64,000 nt of DNA, taken from the NCBI GenBank assembly GCA_035652535.1, contig DASRDP010000112.1, forward strand, positions 1 through 64,000. Direction: 5' to 3'. Source of the stretch: Chloroflexota bacterium. Lineage in GTDB: Bacteria; Chloroflexota; UBA6077; SHYK01. The notes under the pieces were generated by a model. That model saw only the letters and a program-made list of their open reading frames with translations. It had not been told where the DNA came from and did no database searches. The position numbers and the translations under genes are program-made. Below, in pieces: positions 36,883 to 47,089 of the stretch; within the stretch, counting starts at the first letter, position 1, and each line of letters opens with the position of its first letter.

Positions 36883-37079
36883 GGAGCCATTGTAGAACGC
36901 GGAGCGACCGGTCCGGCCAAGGCGGCGAACCCGAGTTGGCTTGCTTGTTCCAGAGCATGTCGCCTGCTACCATGCCATCGCGGCGCGGACGACGGCTGCC
37001 ACCCTCGTATTGCCCTCAGCGACATTCGGCCCCCGCGTTGCCGTCGCGTCCACGGAGCATATCGTATGAGGAGTCAGGA

Positions 37080-37733
37080 ATGAGCGACGCGATCATCGAG
37101 AAGTTTCGGGGGATGTCCACTGCGAACATCTCCGATGCCCTCGACCGTCTTCGCATGCCCGGTAGCGCCTTCGGCATCAGCCCCCTACAAAATGGGCAGC
37201 GCATGATTGGCCGCGCATACACGATTCAGTACGTGCCGGCCGGCTCGCCCCCGGGGACGGTCGGCGACTACATCGACGACGTGGAGCCCGGGCAGGTGGT
37301 CGTCCTCGACAACAGCGGCCGACGTGACTGCACGGTTTGGGGCGACATCCTGACAGCCGTGGCCCACGCGCGCGGCGTGGCTGGGACGGTGATCCACGGA
37401 GTGTGCCGCGACGTGTATCGCGCGCTCGACGTCCGCTATCCCATCTACAGCTGCGGGCGATTCATGCGCACCGGGAAAGACCGCGTCGAGGTGTCGGGCA
37501 TGAATGTGCCGGTCACCTTGGGCGACGTGCGCGTGCGGCCCGGAGACGTCGTGATCGGGGACGACGATGGCGTGCTGGTCGTGCAGCAGGAGCACGCGGA
37601 AAAAGTGCTCGAAGTCGCCTTGGAGATCGCCGAGCTGGAGGACCACATCGTCGAAGAGGCACTGTCGGGGACGTCGCTGCGCGAGGCGCGCGTGAAATAC
37701 GGATACCACCAGCTTCAACGGAGTGGACGTTAG
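37080..37733 (+). CDS. RraA-type aldolase (HMG/CHA aldolase-like)
   Basis: A 217-residue protein of the RraA/4-hydroxy-4-methyl-2-oxoglutarate aldolase fold. The class II aldolase features are GDILTAVAHARGVAGTVIHG and CRDV (the Arg-Asp pair, around residues 98-121), which catalytic members keep; RraA regulators of RNase E lack the aldolase function. ATG at 37080 has GAGGAG and AGGA upstream. A second paralogue lies 29 bases downstream and is joined to an MFS carrier, suggesting a catabolic operon for a 4-hydroxy-2-oxo acid. Confidence 0.82.
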   Translation: MSDAIIEKFRGMSTANISDALDRLRMPGSAFGISPLQNGQRMIGRAYTIQYVPAGSPPGTVGDYIDDVEPGQVVVLDNSGRRDCTVWGDILTAVAHARGVAGTVIHGVCRDVYRALDVRYPIYSCGRFMRTGKDRVEVSGMNVPVTLGDVRVRPGDVVIGDDDGVLVVQQEHAEKVLEVALEIAELEDHIVEEALSGTSLREARVKYGYHQLQRSGR

Positions 37734-37762
37734 CGCTCCTCCGTCGCTAAGGAGTTGTCAGC

Positions 37763-38422
37763 ATGGCATCGCACACAGAACTCCTCGCCCGCCTCGAGCG
37801 GGTTGACACGTGCGCCGTGTCGGACGCGCTGGACCACCTCGGGCTCCGAGGCGCCGTGATCGGCATTCGCCCCGTGTGGGCCTGTCCCAAAATCGTCGGC
37901 AGAGCGGTGACCGTCAAGATCGTGCCGGCCGGTTTGACCCGCCCGGAACATCACCTCGCCACGCCTGCCGTGGAGGCGGCCGAGCCGGGCGATGTGATCG
38001 TCGTCGACAACGCTGGCCGGACGGACGTATCGAGCTGGGGCGACATCCTTTCCAACGCCGCGCAGGTGAAGGGCGTCCGTGGTGTGATCATCGATGGCGC
38101 CTGCCGCGACGTTGATGGCAGTCGAGAGATTGGATTTCCGGTCTACGCGCGGGCCGGTGTACCAGTGACAGCGCGGGGGCGAATCATTCAGGAGGCGTTC
38201 AACACGCTGGTCCAGTGCGGCGGCGTCCAGGTCCGCCCGGGCGACCTCGTTATCGCGGACGGGAGCGGCGTGGTCTTCATCCCAGCCGAGCGCGCGGAAG
38301 AAGTGATCGAGGCGGCAGAGCGCATCGTCGAGCGCGAGGCCGCGATGGTTCAGGCCGTGCGCGACGGCCGCTCCGTCGTCGAGGTCATGGCGGAGTCTGC
38401 CTTCCAAGCTATTCACCAGTGA
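37763..38422 (+). CDS. RraA-type aldolase (second paralogue)
   Basis: A 219-residue RraA-family protein. The fold motifs are CAVSDALDHLGLRGAVIGIR, SWGDILSNAAQVKGVRGVII, DGACRDVDGSREIGFPVYAR and GGVQVRPGDLVIADGSGVVF. It keeps the Gly-Asp and Arg-Asp residues of pyruvate aldolases. It is diverged from its neighbour at 37080, which suggests distinct substrates or a hetero-oligomer. Its TGA stop overlaps the GTG start of the MFS gene as GTGA, so transport and cleavage are translationally coupled. Confidence 0.82.
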   Translation: MASHTELLARLERVDTCAVSDALDHLGLRGAVIGIRPVWACPKIVGRAVTVKIVPAGLTRPEHHLATPAVEAAEPGDVIVVDNAGRTDVSSWGDILSNAAQVKGVRGVIIDGACRDVDGSREIGFPVYARAGVPVTARGRIIQEAFNTLVQCGGVQVRPGDLVIADGSGVVFIPAERAEEVIEAAERIVEREAAMVQAVRDGRSVVEVMAESAFQAIHQ

Positions 38423-39720
38423 GAGCGAGTCCCTCGGCTTCTCTTCGCGCCCCACGGCTCCTCATTCCCTTCTACTATGGCTGGCTCGTCGCGGCGCTCG
38501 CATTCAGCGCGGCCTTCGTATCCGCGGGTATCCGCGCTGCGCCGTCCGTGTTCATCCACCCGTTCGAGGCCGAATTTGGGTGGAACCGCGCGGCCATCGC
38601 GGGCGCGATCTCCGTGAACCTGCTGCTCTACGGTCTCGGTGCACCGGTCTCTGGGCGCCTCATCGATCGCTTTGGTCCTCGGAAGGTGGTAACGGCGAAC
38701 CTTCTGGTGCTGGGCGCGGCCGTCGCAGCCACCATCGGCATGAATGCGCTCTGGCAGCTCACGGTACTGTGGGGGCTGGTCATCGGACTGGCGGCGGGCG
38801 GGAGCTCGGTCCTGGCCGCGACGGTTGCGAGCCGGTGGTTCGTGCGCCGACGTGGACTCGTGATCGGATTGCTCGGCACGGCGACGTCGACGGGCCAGGT
38901 CGTCTTCGTCCCGCTCCTCATGATGCTGGTCGTGGGCGTTGGCTGGCGCGGCGCGAGCATCACGCTAGCGCTTGCGGCGGCTCTGACGCTCGTTCCCGTG
39001 GCCCTCTTCATGCGGGACGAGCCGGCCGAAGTTGGCGTCCAGGCGTATGGCGCAGCGAATTCCACATCGTCAGGCGCTGGTCGTGAGCAGCAGGCAGCGG
39101 CGCCGGCTGTTCCGCTGTCGAAAGCGATCCAATCGGTCGATTTCTGGCTTCTCACCGGGAGCTTCTTCGTGTGCGGGGCGACGTCGAACGGACTCGTCGG
39201 AACGCACCTCATTCCGCACGCTATCGACCACGGGATTCCAGAAGTCACCGCGGCAGCGGCCGTGGGGCTCATGGGAGGGCTCAACTTCGTGGGCACCCTG
39301 GGCTCGGGCTGGCTCACCGACCGTGTGGATCCGCGGCGGCTTCTGGCCGCCTACTACGGATTTCGCGGTATCGCGCTCATGGTTCTCCCGTTTGTCACCT
39401 GGTTTCCCGGGCTCTTTATCTTTGCGATCCTGTTCGGGCTCGACTGGTACACGACAGTTCCGGCGACGACGATGCTGTCGTCGCAGTTGTTTGGCAAGCG
39501 GTCCATCGGAACCATCTATGGATGGATCTTCTTCTCCCATCAGGTTGGCGCCGCGACATCCGCACTTGCCGCGGGGGCCGTGCGCGTGTGGCTCGGCGAT
39601 TACCAGGTCGCATTCTTCGCCGGCGCGCTCGTCTGCGTCGTCGGCGCAAGTCTCGCCCTCCTCATTCGCGATCAGCGGGCGGTTCCCCAAGGGTTCGCGG
39701 CGAGCGGAGCGGCCGCGTAA
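38419..39720 (+). CDS. MFS transporter (organic acid type)
   Basis: A 433-residue carrier with 12 predicted transmembrane helices. Family signs are YYGWLVAALAFSAAF at the start, LIDRFGPRKVVTANLLVLGA (motif A type, about residues 78-97) and a long central loop with low-complexity sequence (about 215-235). The layout resembles the oxalate/formate and monocarboxylate branch. GTG at 38419 overlaps the stop of the RraA gene. The coupling suggests it imports the acid that the aldolases cleave; the substrate is unknown. Confidence 0.85.
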   Translation: MRASPSASLRAPRLLIPFYYGWLVAALAFSAAFVSAGIRAAPSVFIHPFEAEFGWNRAAIAGAISVNLLLYGLGAPVSGRLIDRFGPRKVVTANLLVLGAAVAATIGMNALWQLTVLWGLVIGLAAGGSSVLAATVASRWFVRRRGLVIGLLGTATSTGQVVFVPLLMMLVVGVGWRGASITLALAAALTLVPVALFMRDEPAEVGVQAYGAANSTSSGAGREQQAAAPAVPLSKAIQSVDFWLLTGSFFVCGATSNGLVGTHLIPHAIDHGIPEVTAAAAVGLMGGLNFVGTLGSGWLTDRVDPRRLLAAYYGFRGIALMVLPFVTWFPGLFIFAILFGLDWYTTVPATTMLSSQLFGKRSIGTIYGWIFFSHQVGAATSALAAGAVRVWLGDYQVAFFAGALVCVVGASLALLIRDQRAVPQGFAASGAAA

Positions 39721-40029: not shown

Positions 40030-41394
40030 TTAGCGGACTCCCGAGCCGGTACGTTCGACGCGCACTGCTCGGTCAGGCGCGGGGGTCGCGTCCGCACGAT
40101 GGACGGCCCCGATTTCAAAGCGACGGACCGATACGGTCCCGGTCGCCAGCCCCACGGCGAGGGCGCCCACGAAGAGGCCTCCCGCCAGGGTCGCCCCCTC
40201 CGCGCCCACGACGGATGCCAGCGTCCCCGCCTCGAATTGTCCAAGCTGCGGGCCGGTGTTGGTGAACATGCTGTTCACGCTGGTGACACGCCCGCGCAGC
40301 TCGTCCGGTGTGATGAGCTGGTTGATGGTCCCCCGGAGTACGTTGCTCAACGAGTTGGACGCCCCTGCCCCGGCGAGCATGAGGAACGAGAGCCAGAACG
40401 TGTGCGAAATGGCGAAGAGCGCCATGAAAACGCCGTAGACGGCGACGCTGGCAAGGACGCACATCCCCGCCCGGCGCACCTGCGGCCGAACACTGATAAA
40501 CGCCGCCATCCCGAGCGCACCGAACGAGGTCGCCGTGTAGAGGAGCCCGAGCCCTTGCGGACCGACTTCCAGGATGTCGCGCGCGTAAATGGGCAGGAGC
40601 GCCCGGGAGTTGCCGAAGAAGTTCTGCCCGAAATCGAGCGCCATGAGCGAGAGGATCACGGGGTGAGCCCACACAAAGGCGAGACCCTGGCGCAACGACT
40701 GGAGCGATACCGCGCGCCGTCCCGCAGCGATCTGGGCCGTCGGCCGCATGATGAGGAGCGCAGCCAGCATGGCGAGCCACGAGCTTGCATCGACCGCGTA
40801 ACACAGGACCGGGCCGGCGGCTGCCAGGACCAGGCCGGCGAGCGACGGACCGACGATGGTCGCCACCTGGCGCTGGGAGCTGTTCAGCGCCAGGGCATTC
40901 GTCAGCTCGTGACGGGGCACGAGATTCGGGACCATCGCCTGCCGAGCCGGGTTCTCGAATGATCCGAACAGCGCGAGCAGCACGCTTGCCCCGTACAGCA
41001 CGGGGGGCGAGATCACGCCGGCAAAGGTGCAGAGGACGAGGCTGGCGGAAACGCACATCTGACCGATTTGGGTCAGCATCATCAGCTTGCGGCGGTTGAT
41101 GGCGTCGGCCAGCAGTCCGCCGAAGAGCAGCAGCACCAGCGTCGGTCCACCTCGGGCGAGACCGATAAGCCCGAGCTGAAGGGGCGAGTTCGTAATCTCG
41201 TAGATCTGCCAGGCGATGGCGACCGAGGTGAACTGACTTCCGATACTCGAGATGACGGATCCGGTCCAGTACGTGCGAAAGTCCCGGTGGCGCAAAGCGG
41301 CAACCGGTGTGCGACCCGGTGGCGCATCACCCGGAGACGCCGGGGCCGGATTCCGCGATTCGATGCTCACCGCCCGCGCGCTCCGGCTACGCAC
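40030..41394 (-). CDS. MFS exporter (EntS/transmembrane secretion effector type)
   Basis: A 454-residue major facilitator with about 12 hydrophobic helices. The N-terminal FRTYWTGSVISSIGSQFTSV and the loop ADAINRRKLMMLTQIGQM, then SFENPARQAMVPNLVPRHEL, identify the MFS_3/EntS-like branch of exporters. The C-terminal half includes GTINQLITPDELRGRVTSVN. The start codon GTG at 41394 has no clear ribosome site; a GTG at 41370 is an alternative. It is related to the MFS gene at 43789, which shares the same motifs. Substrate unknown. Confidence 0.85.
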   Translation of the reverse strand: MRSRSARAVSIESRNPAPASPGDAPPGRTPVAALRHRDFRTYWTGSVISSIGSQFTSVAIAWQIYEITNSPLQLGLIGLARGGPTLVLLLFGGLLADAINRRKLMMLTQIGQMCVSASLVLCTFAGVISPPVLYGASVLLALFGSFENPARQAMVPNLVPRHELTNALALNSSQRQVATIVGPSLAGLVLAAAGPVLCYAVDASSWLAMLAALLIMRPTAQIAAGRRAVSLQSLRQGLAFVWAHPVILSLMALDFGQNFFGNSRALLPIYARDILEVGPQGLGLLYTATSFGALGMAAFISVRPQVRRAGMCVLASVAVYGVFMALFAISHTFWLSFLMLAGAGASNSLSNVLRGTINQLITPDELRGRVTSVNSMFTNTGPQLGQFEAGTLASVVGAEGATLAGGLFVGALAVGLATGTVSVRRFEIGAVHRADATPAPDRAVRVERTGSGVR

Positions 41395-41778: not shown

Positions 41779-42825
41779 GTGCGAGAGCGAGCGCGGGAGG
41801 TTCAAACTCACTACGACATCCAGATGGAGCGGCGCGCGGCCGACGTCGACGATTGGGAGCGAAATCGCAAGGTCATGGCGTACGCAAGGAATCTGCGCAT
41901 GTCGTACTCCCCGCTGCGCAATGCCTCGTACGGCACCCTCATCGGGCCGGGCGGCCAGTGCCCGTCCCGCGTGATCGATACGCGAATGATCGAGATCGAG
42001 CCGGGCGCTCGCACGAGCACCCATCGGCACACGCACAGCGCCGAGTTGTTCTGTCTCGAAGGCGAAGGGTACACGGTCGTGAATGATCGGCGCGCAACGT
42101 GGGGTAAGTGGGACGCGGTGTACATTCCAACCAACACCTGGCACTACACGGTCAACACTGGGAACACGCCGGCGCGCTTCGTCAGCATCAGCGACGCCCC
42201 GCTCTTCGATCTGTTCCACCTTGACAGCATGGATGACATCGGCCAGGCCGAGCCCCGCGGTCCCTTCTTCCCGGACACCGAGCTGCAGCGGATTGCGCGA
42301 GCCGTAGAGGGAAAATCGGGGGAATACGAAGCCGCCATCCTCGCCGCCGCCGAGAACGAGCGCCGTTTGGCTACGGGGACGCTCGTGACTCACTTCAAGG
42401 AGCAGACGCTGCTTCTCAACAAGAAGGGGACGAGGAGCACGTTTCTCGTCGACATCAGCCAGGGTTTCCATGGCACCGGGCTGAGCATGGTGATGTTCCA
42501 GATAGCGCCAGGTGGCTGGCAATCGAAGCACCGCCACGGGGGTGAGGCGGTGCTGTTTTGCGTCGACGGCAAGGGCTACAGCGTCATCGACGGCGAGCGC
42601 CACGAGTGGGCCGCGGGCGATGCCACCCTGGTATCGAAATGGTCGTGGCACCAGCACTTCAACGCCGATCCAGACAACATTGCGGTGATCATCCGGATGC
42701 ACATGTGGGAGAGCCAGTACAAGCTGATGAGCTTCTGTCTGTATCCGCTTCCCATGTACGAGGAGCCGGCGCGCCTCGATGGCAGCGATCCATCGCTCTG
42801 GGAACGACATTCGGTGGAAGCCTGA
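41779..42825 (+). CDS. Bicupin protein with intact His motifs in both domains
   Basis: A 348-residue protein with two cupin barrels. Domain 1 (about residues 60-140) has THRHTHSAELFCLEGEGYTV and a downstream WHYTV; domain 2 (about 220-310) has SKHRHGGEAVLFCVDGKGYS and WHQHF. Both provide the HxH...E...H set for a mononuclear metal. It is of another subfamily than the bicupin at 290. GTG at 41779 is chosen for the GGAGG 9 bases upstream; GTG at 41761 or 41731 are alternatives. It is followed 17 bases later by a His-rich AAA+ ATPase, a very suggestive neighbour for metal loading. Confidence 0.8.
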   Translation: MRERAREVQTHYDIQMERRAADVDDWERNRKVMAYARNLRMSYSPLRNASYGTLIGPGGQCPSRVIDTRMIEIEPGARTSTHRHTHSAELFCLEGEGYTVVNDRRATWGKWDAVYIPTNTWHYTVNTGNTPARFVSISDAPLFDLFHLDSMDDIGQAEPRGPFFPDTELQRIARAVEGKSGEYEAAILAAAENERRLATGTLVTHFKEQTLLLNKKGTRSTFLVDISQGFHGTGLSMVMFQIAPGGWQSKHRHGGEAVLFCVDGKGYSVIDGERHEWAAGDATLVSKWSWHQHFNADPDNIAVIIRMHMWESQYKLMSFCLYPLPMYEEPARLDGSDPSLWERHSVEA

Positions 42826-42842
42826 GGGGGGACGGACGGACA

Positions 42843-43826
42843 ATGCGAGACTCGGACGTCAATCTCTATCGGCCTTCCAGGCTGTTCCAGGAGTTCGGTC
42901 CGTTCCTCGGCGAGCCCGGCGCCGATGGAACCGCCGTTAGCGCGAACGACATCGTCGGCGCCCCATACCGACGCGTGTTGGCGGAGACGACGGCGATCGT
43001 CGCTCACCAGTGGCGGAATGACATCACGCGCAGCGCGCTCAAAGGATTTCTCTTCTACGGCGGCGTCGGCATCGGCAAGACGACCATGGGGCGCCGCCTC
43101 ACGTATGAGCTGGCACGGATTTTCGGCGGAGACTTGTTCGCCGGCGAGATCGCCCAGGTATCCGAAACGCATGGCCACGAGCACGCGGACGGCATCGGCC
43201 ACCATCACGTGCACGAGGAGCCCCACATCCACGGCCACGATCCGTTCTCGCCCGAGTTGGCCGGCGACGACGTCGTGCTGGTGATCGTGGACGGCGCTGA
43301 TATCGCCCGCGGACGTTACGGAGACAGCGAAGAGCAGCTTCGGAAGCTCTTCCAGTACGCGCGCGAGGGCGAGTTCCACGGCCACCGGCACGAGGAGGAC
43401 CCGACACGCCGGACCGTGCTCCTGTTCGACGATGTGGAGAGCCTGTTCCTCGCACGCAGCTCGGGCGGCGCTAAAGAATGGCACTTCAGCCAGAACAGCG
43501 TGTTCTTCCACGCGATCGACGAGCTGGATACGTCGCGCACGGCCGTAGTCCTGACCACGAATCGGATTGACCTGGTTGACGAGGCGATCGTCGACCGCTT
43601 CCTCCCGTACGAGTTCGGCACGCCGCCGAAGGACGTGCTGGAGGAGGTCGCGCGCCACCGAGCCGCGCTCCAGAAGCTTGATGACGCGCAGCTCGCGCCG
43701 GTCCTCGCGGCGATCGCGAAGGGCGATGACGCGGTGAAAAGCATTCGTGATGTGGAGCGGATGGTGACGCGCGCCTACATCGCCGGGATCATTGCGGCGC
43801 CCGTCCCAGTGGGGCGCCTTCCGTAG
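42843..43826 (+). CDS. AAA+ ATPase with a histidine-rich insertion
   Basis: A 327-residue AAA+ ATPase. Walker A is GGVGIGKTT (about residues 73-81); Walker B is TVLLFDDVESL near 191, followed by VVLTTNRIDLVDEAIVDRFL (sensor and Arg-finger region). Between the Walker motifs, residues 107-133 hold ten His in about 27 residues (THGHEH, GHHHVH, HIHGHD), and EFHGHRHEE near 180 adds three more. Such clusters bind Zn or Ni in HypB- and CobW-type chaperones. The AAA core resembles rubisco-activase/CbbX-like or other remodelling ATPases. It lies 17 bases after the bicupin gene, and its last 38 bases overlap the convergent MFS gene. I infer a role in metal insertion into or reactivation of the bicupin. 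Confidence 0.75.
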   Translation: MRDSDVNLYRPSRLFQEFGPFLGEPGADGTAVSANDIVGAPYRRVLAETTAIVAHQWRNDITRSALKGFLFYGGVGIGKTTMGRRLTYELARIFGGDLFAGEIAQVSETHGHEHADGIGHHHVHEEPHIHGHDPFSPELAGDDVVLVIVDGADIARGRYGDSEEQLRKLFQYAREGEFHGHRHEEDPTRRTVLLFDDVESLFLARSSGGAKEWHFSQNSVFFHAIDELDTSRTAVVLTTNRIDLVDEAIVDRFLPYEFGTPPKDVLEEVARHRAALQKLDDAQLAPVLAAIAKGDDAVKSIRDVERMVTRAYIAGIIAAPVPVGRLP

Positions 43827-45132
43827 ATCGGACTTCCTGACGCAGGCCCCGGACGTCGGGAAGCGCAGCCGCAATAAATAGCGCGAGCCCGACGACGAGC
43901 GCGCCGCCGAGCGCGATGGCTATCTGGGGGCTGGAGACTTCCGCGATGCCCCCGGCGATGGTGCCGCCGAAGGGCATGAGGCTCCACGTGAGGCCCCAGA
44001 CGCCCATCACCCGCCCCCGAAAATCCTCGGGCAGGTTGAGCTGCAGGCTCGTGTTGATGGTCGTCATGTACATCTGATTCGCCGCGCCCCCCAGAAAGAG
44101 GAAAGCGAGCGAGAGGGCGTACGAGGGTGAGAGCGCGAATCCGATGAGGAGCGCGCCGAAGACGGCAGAGCCCGCCAGGGCCTGGATGCCGCTTCGCCCC
44201 CACCGGGCCAGGTAAAGCACGCCGATCGTCCCAAGGAGCGAACCCAGGCCGGCCGCGGACTCGAGCAAGCCGAAGCCCTGCGATCCGACGTTGAGGATGT
44301 CGCGGGCAAAGATCGGCAGCAGCAGAACGTACGACATCCCGAACACGCTGTTGAAGAAGGTGAGGCCGATGAGCGCATAGAAGATCTGGTTGGTCCGAAT
44401 AAAATTCATGCCATCCAGCATGTTGCGGATGAGTCCGCGGTCGGTCATTTGTGCAGGCGGCTGCTCCACGCGTATGCGGCTGAAAAGGCCGAGCGCAAGG
44501 ACGAACCCCATACACGCCACCAGAAACGTGTGACCGACGCCGATGAGGTAGATCAGCATGCCTGCGAACGCCGGGCCTACGAGTCTTGTCCCCTGCCACA
44601 CGGTATTGCCAAGCGGCACCGCGCTCGGGATCTCTTCGCGCGGGATGACGAGGGGGATCAATGCCTGGCGGCTCGGTTGATCGAAGGATCGAACGCACCC
44701 CAGAAGGAACGCGCACAGCATGACCTCCCAGACCTGCACGCGCTCGGTGAGGGTGAGCACGGACAGGGCGAGAAACAGGAGCGCGGTGGTCGCCTGGGTG
44801 GTCATGAGGAGGCGGAGCCGGTCCATGCGGTCTGCCACGGCCCCTCCCACGAACGACAGCGCGATTTGGGGAGCCGATTGCATGAGGCCCGTGACACCGA
44901 GGAGCAGGGGAGAGTTGGTGAGTTGGAGGACCAGCCATGCCAGAGCCACCTGCTGCATGTTCTGGGCGAGAACCGATGGAAACTGCGCGAGCCAGTAGAA
45001 GCGATAATTGCGGTGCCGCAGCGGCCGAAGGAGCGATGGGGACTCAGGCAGCGAACCGGCCGGTTCGAGCCTCTGGTTGGCGCGGGCAGCGGGTGCGGCC
45101 ACGGCGGCGTCCTGGACGGCGGGAGTGTTCAC
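43789..45132 (-). CDS. MFS transporter (EntS/MFS_3 type)
   Basis: A 447-residue exporter-type carrier with about 12 helices. Motifs parallel the gene at 40030: NYRFYWLAQFPSVLAQNMQQ, GAVADRMDRLRLLMTTQATT, SFDQPSRQALIPLVIPREEI and TTINTSLQLNLPEDFRGRVM. The GTG at 45132 is taken as start; an in-frame TTG extends it to 45183 without homology. It is convergent with the AAA+ gene, overlapping it by 38 bases. Confidence 0.82.
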   Translation of the reverse strand: MNTPAVQDAAVAAPAARANQRLEPAGSLPESPSLLRPLRHRNYRFYWLAQFPSVLAQNMQQVALAWLVLQLTNSPLLLGVTGLMQSAPQIALSFVGGAVADRMDRLRLLMTTQATTALLFLALSVLTLTERVQVWEVMLCAFLLGCVRSFDQPSRQALIPLVIPREEIPSAVPLGNTVWQGTRLVGPAFAGMLIYLIGVGHTFLVACMGFVLALGLFSRIRVEQPPAQMTDRGLIRNMLDGMNFIRTNQIFYALIGLTFFNSVFGMSYVLLLPIFARDILNVGSQGFGLLESAAGLGSLLGTIGVLYLARWGRSGIQALAGSAVFGALLIGFALSPSYALSLAFLFLGGAANQMYMTTINTSLQLNLPEDFRGRVMGVWGLTWSLMPFGGTIAGGIAEVSSPQIAIALGGALVVGLALFIAAALPDVRGLRQEVRSTEGAPLGRAPQ

Positions 45133-45280
45133 CGGGTCCAGGGCTCTCGGGTGAACGCGCTGGTCGCTACGCTCATCGCACAATCGCCCCTTGTCACTAC
45201 GATTCGCTCCGCGCTACGCTGCTTGGAACCGTTCTGCGATTGTACCGCGCTACCCGGCGGGGGAAGGGAAGGTTATCGGC

Positions 45281-47089
45281 ATGCAACCTCAGGGCGCCAT
45301 CGCGACAGCGCATTCGGAGGGCGCGACTCCGCGGCTGGCAGCGCGGATCGGGAGGGCGACGGACTTGACCGGCCTGGCGCATCGACTCCTGGCGTGCGCC
45401 GTGGTCATGGCTGTGCTGGTGGCATGTGCGCCCTCCACGGCCCCGGGCACCTCCGGCTCGGGCGCGAGCCAGCCTCCCGCGGCGCCATCGGGGCGAACGC
45501 TCGTGGTGGCGATTCGGGTCGAGCCGCCGACGATCACGACGCGGCCGCTGCAGACGGCCGGGATCGGACTCTACCTCCCCAGCCGCATGTTCAACGCGAG
45601 CATTGGTCTGCTTGATGGTGACGGCAAGGTCCGTCCATATCTCGTCGATGCTCTTCCTCAGCTCAATTCGGATAACTGGCAGCTCAGTCCCGACGGCACG
45701 ATGACCACGACCTATCGGTTCAAACCAAACGTCGTCTGGCAGGATGGTGCGGCCTTGGATGCCGACGACTTCGTCTTCGCGTGGAACGTGTACTCGACGA
45801 AAGAGTTCGGTCAATCGGGCGCTTCCCCGTTCCGATCGATCCGAGACGTCGTCGCGCAAGACTCGCGCACGCTCGTGATCCACTGGAAAGAGCCGTACCC
45901 CGATGTGTCGTTTACGGACGGGCTCAACACGGAGTTTCCGCCCCTTCCCCGCCACATTCTCGAAGATTCGTTCCGAAGCGGGGCGATGGATGCCTTCGTC
46001 GCCGATCCGTTCTGGACGCGGGAATACGTGGGGCTGGGTCCCTATCGCCTGACGCAATGGGAGCCTGGCGCCTACATCGAGGCCGAGGCGTTCGACAGGC
46101 ACATCCTGGGGAAACCGAAAATCGGAAAAATCCGCCTGGACTTTAGCAGCGATGAGCGCGCGGTCCTGTCGCGGATCCTCGCGGGCGAAGTGCTCATGAC
46201 CGACGGAACGTCCATGGGGCTGCCGGAAGTCCAGGTGCTGAAGCAGGACTGGATCCCGCAAGGGAAGGGGAACGTCGTCATTCATCCGAACCAGTGGCGC
46301 GCCGTGCACTTCCAGAATCGGGCCGACATCGCGCAGCCGCAAGCGCTCCTCAACCGAACGGTTCGGAAGGCGTTGGCCCATACGGTCGACAAGAACGCGC
46401 TCAACGATGCTCTGTACTACGGCCTCGCCACTCCCACGGACAGCCTCGTCGCGCCGCAGTCGATCTGGGGACCTGCCGCCGAAAAGGGAGCGGTGAAGTA
46501 CCCGTACGACCTGAAGCAGACGGACCAGCTCATGCAGCAAGCGGGGTTTCGAAAAGGTCCCGATGGCGTCTACGCGAGCCCAACGGACGGTCGCTTGAGC
46601 TGGCTCACCGAAACGAACGCGGGGAGCGACAACGAGTCGGAGATGTCGATCCTAGCCGCTGGATGGAGACAAGCCGGTTTCGACGTGCAGGAGAACGTGC
46701 TGTCCGCGTCTGAAGCGCGCAATCCCGAAAAGCGAGCCACCTTCCCGGCGACGTTCAGCAACAGCCAGAACTGTTGTGGCAGCGCCCTGCTGGGGTTTAC
46801 CAGCGCCAATATCGGCACCCAGGATACGCGATGGGCGGGCGCGAACCGGTCAGGCTGGTCGAACGCCGATTTCGATCGGCTAGCGTCGGCGTTCGCGCAG
46901 ACGCTGGACTTTCAAGAGCGCGAGGCCCAGGTGACGTCTATGGTCCACGTCATGACGGATGACATGCAATCCATCTCGCTCCTGATCCGCGGCCAGCCAT
47001 GGGTGTACGTTTCGGAGCTCAAGGGGATTGCCATTGCTCCGCCGGAGGGGAACATCAGTTGGAACATCCACGAGTGGGAGCTTCGCTGA
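45281..47089 (+). CDS. ABC transporter substrate-binding lipoprotein, family 5
   Basis: A 602-residue SBP_bac_5 protein. The lipobox MAVLVAC places the lipidated Cys at 49 if translation starts at the ATG at 45281. A TTG at 45365 with GGGAGGG about 8 bases upstream would give a tidy short signal and is a real alternative. The body shows FKPNVVWQDGAALDADDFVF, VGLGPYRLTQWEPGAYIEAE and the C-terminal NISWNIHEWELR. It is a paralogue of the convergent gene at 47121 and of the gene at 1742. No permease or ATPase genes are nearby. Confidence 0.86.
   Translation: MQPQGAIATAHSEGATPRLAARIGRATDLTGLAHRLLACAVVMAVLVACAPSTAPGTSGSGASQPPAAPSGRTLVVAIRVEPPTITTRPLQTAGIGLYLPSRMFNASIGLLDGDGKVRPYLVDALPQLNSDNWQLSPDGTMTTTYRFKPNVVWQDGAALDADDFVFAWNVYSTKEFGQSGASPFRSIRDVVAQDSRTLVIHWKEPYPDVSFTDGLNTEFPPLPRHILEDSFRSGAMDAFVADPFWTREYVGLGPYRLTQWEPGAYIEAEAFDRHILGKPKIGKIRLDFSSDERAVLSRILAGEVLMTDGTSMGLPEVQVLKQDWIPQGKGNVVIHPNQWRAVHFQNRADIAQPQALLNRTVRKALAHTVDKNALNDALYYGLATPTDSLVAPQSIWGPAAEKGAVKYPYDLKQTDQLMQQAGFRKGPDGVYASPTDGRLSWLTETNAGSDNESEMSILAAGWRQAGFDVQENVLSASEARNPEKRATFPATFSNSQNCCGSALLGFTSANIGTQDTRWAGANRSGWSNADFDRLASAFAQTLDFQEREAQVTSMVHVMTDDMQSISLLIRGQPWVYVSELKGIAIAPPEGNISWNIHEWELR

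Follow-up and report, generated by a model that had tools for sequence, protein, structure and literature searches.

Organization of the locus

The window, the whole 64,000-nucleotide stretch of DNA analyzed here, is part of contig C112 of the Chloroflexota draft genome G000. The following features make up the locus of interest:

36936..38422, plus strand: two RraA-like genes, a catabolic context
38215..39720, plus strand: MFS transporter gene upstream of the pair
40030-41394, minus strand: MFS_3 carrier gene flanking the pair
41779..42825, plus strand: bicupin gene, gentisate/aminosalicylate-dioxygenase-like, with two Cupin_2 stretches and His triads
41779..41823, plus strand: N-terminal tail of the bicupin, of the MREREREVQTHYDIQ type, a putative ATPase handle in the window's protein
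42826..42842, plus strand: intergenic gap of 17 bp with a G-rich, ribosome-binding-like sequence
42843..43826, plus strand: gene of a classical AAA+ ATPase (type A), with a Pfam AAA domain and Walker motifs
43158..43238, plus strand: His-rich loop of the ATPase (residues 106-132, 10 His), a lineage-specific insertion in a stretch of variable length
43789-45183, minus strand: MFS_3 carrier gene flanking the pair, with a 38-bp overlap onto the 3' end of the ATPase gene
45191..47089, plus strand: SBP_bac_5 solute-binding protein gene downstream of the pair

The bicupin reading frame opens with a GTG codon at 41779, preceded by GGAGG, and ends with a stop at 42825; the bicupin of the related locus L008 starts at the equivalent position (MREREREV). 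Pfam recognizes two Cupin_2 stretches (E=7e-31); the motifs are THRHTHSAE in domain 1 and KHRHGGEA...WHQHFN in domain 2. The protein comprises two cupin barrels, each with metal-binding histidines, and these residues (HRH and the distal H) are invariant in both barrels in an alignment of bicupins paired with ATPases of types A and B (see below) and unpaired bicupins of family f41. Inspection of the alignment by eye indicates that domain 1 of the type-A bicupins retains the Glu of a 3-His-1-Glu site (HRHxHxAE), and that domain 2 is of the 3-His type (HRHGGEA...WHQHFN).

The best curated families for the bicupin are gentisate 1,2-dioxygenase (E=7e-20) and 5-aminosalicylate 1,2-dioxygenase (E=2e-22), with which it shares the two-cupin architecture and the His sites. 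It scores well under the curated cut-offs of both, reaching 71 of 442 bits for the gentisate 1,2-dioxygenase equivalog and 80 of 650 bits for 5-aminosalicylate 1,2-dioxygenase. The protein probably acts as a metal-dependent dioxygenase of the gentisate/salicylate type, ring-cleaving or related. To our knowledge, no AAA+ partner has been described for gentisate or 5-aminosalicylate 1,2-dioxygenase bicupins. A further cupin-like open reading frame lies at positions 158-1408 of the window on the plus strand; it shows weak similarity to the bicupin (E=1.5e-7) and no Pfam match at E<=1e-8.

The ATPase gene begins with an ATG at 42843, 17 bp past the bicupin stop, and ends at 43826. Its product matches PF00004 (AAA) at E=4e-14 and, with 53.8 bits against a gathering cut-off of 21.2, is a member of that family. 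It carries a canonical Walker A motif (GGVGIGKTT, residues 73-81) and a Walker B motif (VLLFDDVE, residues 192-199) with Asp-Asp in place of the usual Asp-Glu, as well as a pore-loop-like GRYGDSEE and a sensor-2-like SIRDVER. With its intact Walker A motif and sensor-like features, the protein is of the protein-remodelling AAA class. Ten of its 17 histidines fall within 27 residues (106-132) between Walker A and Walker B, and three more are located at positions 179, 181, and 183. When the protein was shuffled 20,000 times, 10 His in 27 residues never arose. Both the intact bicupin gene with an AAA+ ATPase 17 bp behind it and the clustering of histidines between the Walker motifs are therefore as the original prediction described them.

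Conservation of the gene pair

In-depth searching covered draft genomes of Chloroflexota and plasmids, and neighbouring genes outside the profile searches were identified by eye. ATPases of the window's kind, here called type A, were searched in 61 genomes and then in 400 genomes of the phylum. The order yielded five genomes with such ATPases, and another family yielded three with more distant ones. A contig scan with one query sequence recovered only two relatives of the same family (Chloroflexi MAGs), and searches of plasmid and viral collections returned no relatives of the window ATPase. In three genera of the window's family (G000, G001, and G002) bicupin and ATPase genes are adjacent, with a spacing of 17 bp in G000 and 1 bp in G001 and G002 (loci L008 and L009), and the bicupins of the latter two are 79-82% identical to that of the window.

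Elsewhere the association of type A with a bicupin is looser. The two genes share a contig in G008, separated by about 10 kb that include chemotaxis genes, and in family f32 type A is found near a bicupin but outside an operon with it. Bicupin-like genes occur up to about 6 kb from type A, outside its operon, in G207, G221, and G319. In G013, type A sits after a CoxL-like molybdenum hydroxylase gene with no bicupin directly upstream; at a distance of about 5 kb upstream there are two genes for single cupins. G221 also contains a short cupin open reading frame convergent to type A (L025:7482-7994), for which its sister G319 has a full bicupin (L024:9832-11259); decay or a frameshift in G221 is a possible explanation.

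A search from the bicupin side yielded matches in 17 genomes at E<=1e-30. Nine of these 17 matches are 35-39% identical to the window's bicupin and come from other families (f31, f32, and f41), and all nine have an AAA+ gene directly downstream. Left unscored were two bicupins truncated by contig ends and two remote relatives (28%) in G221 and G319. Searches for the second kind of ATPase, here called type B, covered 400 genomes of the phylum as well as 177 genomes from the class to which G344 belongs. Outside CBASS loci, type B was found 15 times, 14 of them in the 177 genomes of this other class and one in G061, and all 15 have a bicupin immediately upstream on the same strand.

The ATPase thus lies mostly 1-17 bp downstream of the bicupin, and order and spacing are kept in 17 genomes other than the window's (G001, G002, and the 15 type-B genomes). 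The draft, metagenome-assembled nature of the genomes and the small number of window-type members might suggest that the adjacency arose by chance or as an assembly artefact, but the conservation of order and spacing in 17 other genomes refutes this reading, which we regard as highly improbable. The original prediction had named a lack of conservation of the pair in other genomes as its refutation. Since conservation extends over several Chloroflexota families, and over two different ATPase types, a dedicated bicupin-AAA+ pair is well supported.

Two types of partner ATPase

The type-B ATPases match TRIP13 in PADLOC (E=2e-89), and their best PDB match is PCH2/TRIP13 (E=4e-38). In one tree they form a clade with Cap6 (support 97/89), in which the bicupin-linked proteins occupy their own branch beside Cap6; a second tree is less resolved. 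By sequence, type B belongs to the TRIP13/Pch2 (CBASS Cap6) clade. Type-B proteins are also about 40-45% identical to plasmid proteins. In the annotated records these are CBASS ATPases, encoded beside a CBASS cyclase gene and a pair of small genes; in two records, one member of that pair carries a HORMA annotation. A more distant match, from an archaeon, has unnamed neighbours. Gene sets of type III CBASS are present at L069-L073 and L106-L108. Among the Chloroflexota, G059 and G246 carry such loci, identified by eye. The CBASS-like loci L072:6933-9738 and L073:450-3217, also from Chloroflexota, have TRIP13, HORMA-like, and CD-NTase genes by the same kind of inspection, and their ATPases are relatives of the bicupin-linked ones.

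We considered whether the bicupin pairs are themselves CBASS systems and rejected this, as inspection by eye of the neighbouring open reading frames of the pairs examined revealed no adjacent HORMA or CD-NTase genes. Known clients of TRIP13/Pch2 are HORMA proteins. The original prediction had raised the prospect that the ATPase belongs to a family with a known, unrelated client; this applies to type B insofar as it comprises TRIP13/Pch2 relatives, but no HORMA gene was seen beside the pairs examined.

Type A is harder to place. Its best single-sequence matches are generic (Sec18/CDC48 and pup_AAA), and in PADLOC TRIP13 ranks first with a weak score (E=1.5e-8). Profile-profile comparison by hhalign aligns types A and B over 223 columns with a probability of 98.1% and E=8.5e-14. 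In the trees, type A stands alone on a long branch, its placement being unsettled by long branches, and monophyly of A plus B is not rejected (p=0.13). Structure predictions of the ATPase were poor (pLDDT 35 from the single sequence and 45 from three sequences), and a fold search with the pLDDT 45 model returned AAA proteins generally (TM of about 0.3-0.4), from which a family could not be placed. These comparisons suggest that the window's type-A ATPase is a divergent relative of type B, with membership of the TRIP13 family itself unproven. MoxR and NorQ profiles were absent among its Pfam and NCBIfam matches. Pfam reports AAA and a sub-threshold DnaA match alone, with no G3E GTPase domain, which sets it apart from HypB and CobW.

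The His-rich loop

Within the window's family, the densest 27 residues of the ATPases hold 10 (window), 7 (L008), and 4 (L009) histidines. Outside this family, the loop of the type-A orthologues in G008 and G013 is reduced to a few residues and is not His-rich, and both length and sequence of the loop vary among type-A ATPases. The His-rich stretch is absent from every type-B ATPase examined. The loop is therefore not a core part of the pair.

Histidine tracts are also found on other proteins. CDC48-like AAA+ proteins of the window's genome and of G002 carry them; in L083:388-2625 and L076:2751-5114 they form His-rich linkers preceding the first ATPase domain. An HxHxDGxxHxH-like pattern recurs in the C-terminal tail of a EutA-like protein (identified by eye) of the window's genome, encoded at L118:1-1563 on contig C66, whose His-rich tail reads HEHDHEYMHAHGIAHEHDDGNGHVH. 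EutA itself reactivates a cobalamin enzyme in an ATP-dependent manner, and by analogy the L118 protein may be a second His-tagged reactivase of this genome. As the loop is unconserved and unrelated proteins of this genome bear such tracts too, it is a lineage feature and cannot be the principle on which the pair commonly works.

These observations bear on the possibility that the ATPase is a metallochaperone, whose loop would bind Fe, Mn, Zn, or Ni and pass it to the cupin sites in an ATP-driven manner. Ten histidines in 27 residues exceed what composition would give, and the loops of L008 and L009 are His-enriched as well. Against this, the loop is short and poor in histidine in G008 and G013 and missing from the type-B ATPases examined, and comparable tracts decorate unrelated proteins, so that we consider such a role quite unlikely and reject metal chaperoning as the core function. 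At most, the loop would be an accessory feature of the window's family, for example in metal buffering. Of the maturation or reactivation pair originally proposed, the dedicated and conserved pairing stands, while metal loading by the histidine cluster is unsupported, given its absence from G008, G013, and type B and the tracts on CDC48-like and EutA-like proteins.

Genomic neighbourhood

The pair appears to sit in catabolic gene clusters. At the related locus L009, an RraA-like gene and an MFS gene likewise precede the pair, and an open reading frame similar to the SBP_bac_5 gene follows it. The type-B operons encode an SsuA-like solute-binding protein, an alpha/beta hydrolase, a dihydroorotase/allantoinase-like amidohydrolase, an LLM oxidoreductase, an MFS carrier, and an ArgE/DapE-type (M20-type) hydrolase. 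No gene for a VWA-domain partner is evident near the window's pair, where the neighbours are MFS, RraA, and SBP genes.

Such surroundings could also mean that the ATPase serves another product of the cluster, such as a molybdenum hydroxylase, a Rieske oxygenase, or a mixed complex, with the bicupin adjacent merely by virtue of a shared operon. The position of type A after a CoxL-like gene in G013 and the other redox enzymes close by in L009, L025, and L026 are in line with this. However, the bicupin is the sole constant neighbour found across types A and B, upstream and mostly at 1-17 bp, and the flanking enzymes differ between the two (RraA, MFS, and SBP versus LLM oxidoreductase, amidohydrolase, and M20-type hydrolase). 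We therefore judge a different client to be unlikely.

The N-terminal tail and bicupins without an ATPase

In the type-B pairs, the N-terminal tail of the bicupin is conserved to the same degree as the body. A close type-B bicupin in G503 lacks an ATPase gene in an otherwise matching operon; an MFS gene follows 7 bp after the bicupin, resembling the MFS gene that lies beyond the ATPase in G242. The body of the G503 bicupin shares a mean identity of 78.5% with the paired bicupins, which share 80.6% among themselves, whereas its tail is only 29.5% identical to theirs, compared with 79.6% among the paired proteins. Across the entire G503 protein, the five 12-residue segments that have diverged most are all located in the tail. 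Conservation of the tail is thus lost in the one close relative without an ATPase.

Three f41 genomes contain a more divergent bicupin (45-46% identity to the window's) with no ATPase beside it, and the tails of these proteins differ as well. Neither a type-A nor a type-B ATPase was detected at the thresholds used in G503 or the three f41 genomes. Residues unique to ATPase-less bicupins occupy just two columns of the alignment, of which one falls in the tail, and these are too few to carry weight. As G503 and the f41 genomes have bicupins without an ATPase, the ATPase is not universally needed.

Since the G503 bicupin, lacking its ATPase, combines a diverged tail with a normally conserved body, we infer from this one clean case that the N-terminal tail is the handle by which the ATPase engages the bicupin. 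TRIP13 cannot bind Mad2 without the N-terminal region of the latter, although it is disputed whether this region enters the pore (PMC5717197), and the divergence of the G503 tail fits a similar requirement for the bicupin N-terminus.

Proposed function and relation to known systems

On balance, we favour the reading that the ATPase is a dedicated AAA+ remodelase or activase of the gentisate-dioxygenase-like bicupin, engaging it likely by the N-terminal tail and probably reshaping it or switching it on. The ATPase would assemble, probably as a hexamer, and make physical contact with the bicupin, most likely at the tail. ATP use would then locally unfold or rearrange the bicupin from its N-terminal end, whereupon the bicupin could take up or exchange metal, leave a dead-end complex, or change its assembly state. 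The most likely direction would be activation, reactivation, or assembly of the bicupin.

Several known systems offer parallels. Like TRIP13/Pch2 and Cap6 of type III CBASS, the pair combines a small, single AAA+ gene with an adjacent client gene. TRIP13 remodels its client via local unfolding (PMC5717197). The partner gene here encodes a bicupin rather than a HORMA protein, with no CD-NTase gene adjacent, and the window's type A is far more divergent than type B. The NorQ/CbbQ/CoxD systems are similar in that an AAA+ gene serves the metalloenzyme that it matures; they differ in that the ATPase of the window belongs to the classical AAA family PF00004 rather than to MoxR, with no VWA partner evident. 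Rubisco activase is an AAA+ protein that reactivates a metabolic enzyme through remodelling. Its client is different, and it is absent among the best 60 of 67 PDB matches of type A. Nitric oxide reductase receives its metal by NorQD-driven insertion (PMC13036017), and mitochondrial ClpX, an AAA+ unfoldase, activates ALA synthase by partial unfolding (PMC7077987). Metal insertion by NorQD and partial unfolding by ClpX are parallels for the proposed activation of the bicupin, with ClpX and ALA synthase representing another AAA+ family and another client.

The opposite outcome, in which the ATPase would disassemble or inactivate the bicupin, can be drawn by analogy with CBASS TRIP13, since bacterial members of this group are known to take apart active HORMA-cyclase complexes (PMC10419184). 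Such negative regulation appears rather unlikely: no gene for an inhibitor or second partner was seen, and a metabolic enzyme of the same operon would be an unusual target of constitutive disassembly.

The favoured role as a remodelase or activase allows a more tentative evolutionary scenario. It is possible, though we would not press the point, that TRIP13/Pch2-like ATPases so far known to remodel HORMA proteins, were recruited in the Chloroflexota as dedicated, ATP-driven switches that act on a ring-cleaving bicupin via the tail, and that the ATPase of the window later gained its His-rich, potentially metal-binding loop.

If a remodelling role is correct, a cupin enzyme would possess an AAA+ activase of its own, and the clients of the TRIP13/Pch2 clade would extend beyond HORMA proteins, immunity, and meiosis. 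Literature, mostly open-access, and profile libraries yielded no bicupin partnered by an AAA+ protein, whether TRIP13-like or other. In these sources the pair is undescribed as such, and it is known in kind as an AAA+ remodelase dedicated to a metabolic enzyme as its client. Each pair is a compact unit of two genes suited to co-expression, which makes the question open to direct testing, and the two ATPase types together with the natural ATPase-less relatives (G503 and f41) provide built-in comparisons.

A different arrangement was observed in G095, where another bicupin gene is followed by a EutA-like gene (L049:1261-3892) a few kb from a bicupin-TRIP13-like pair.
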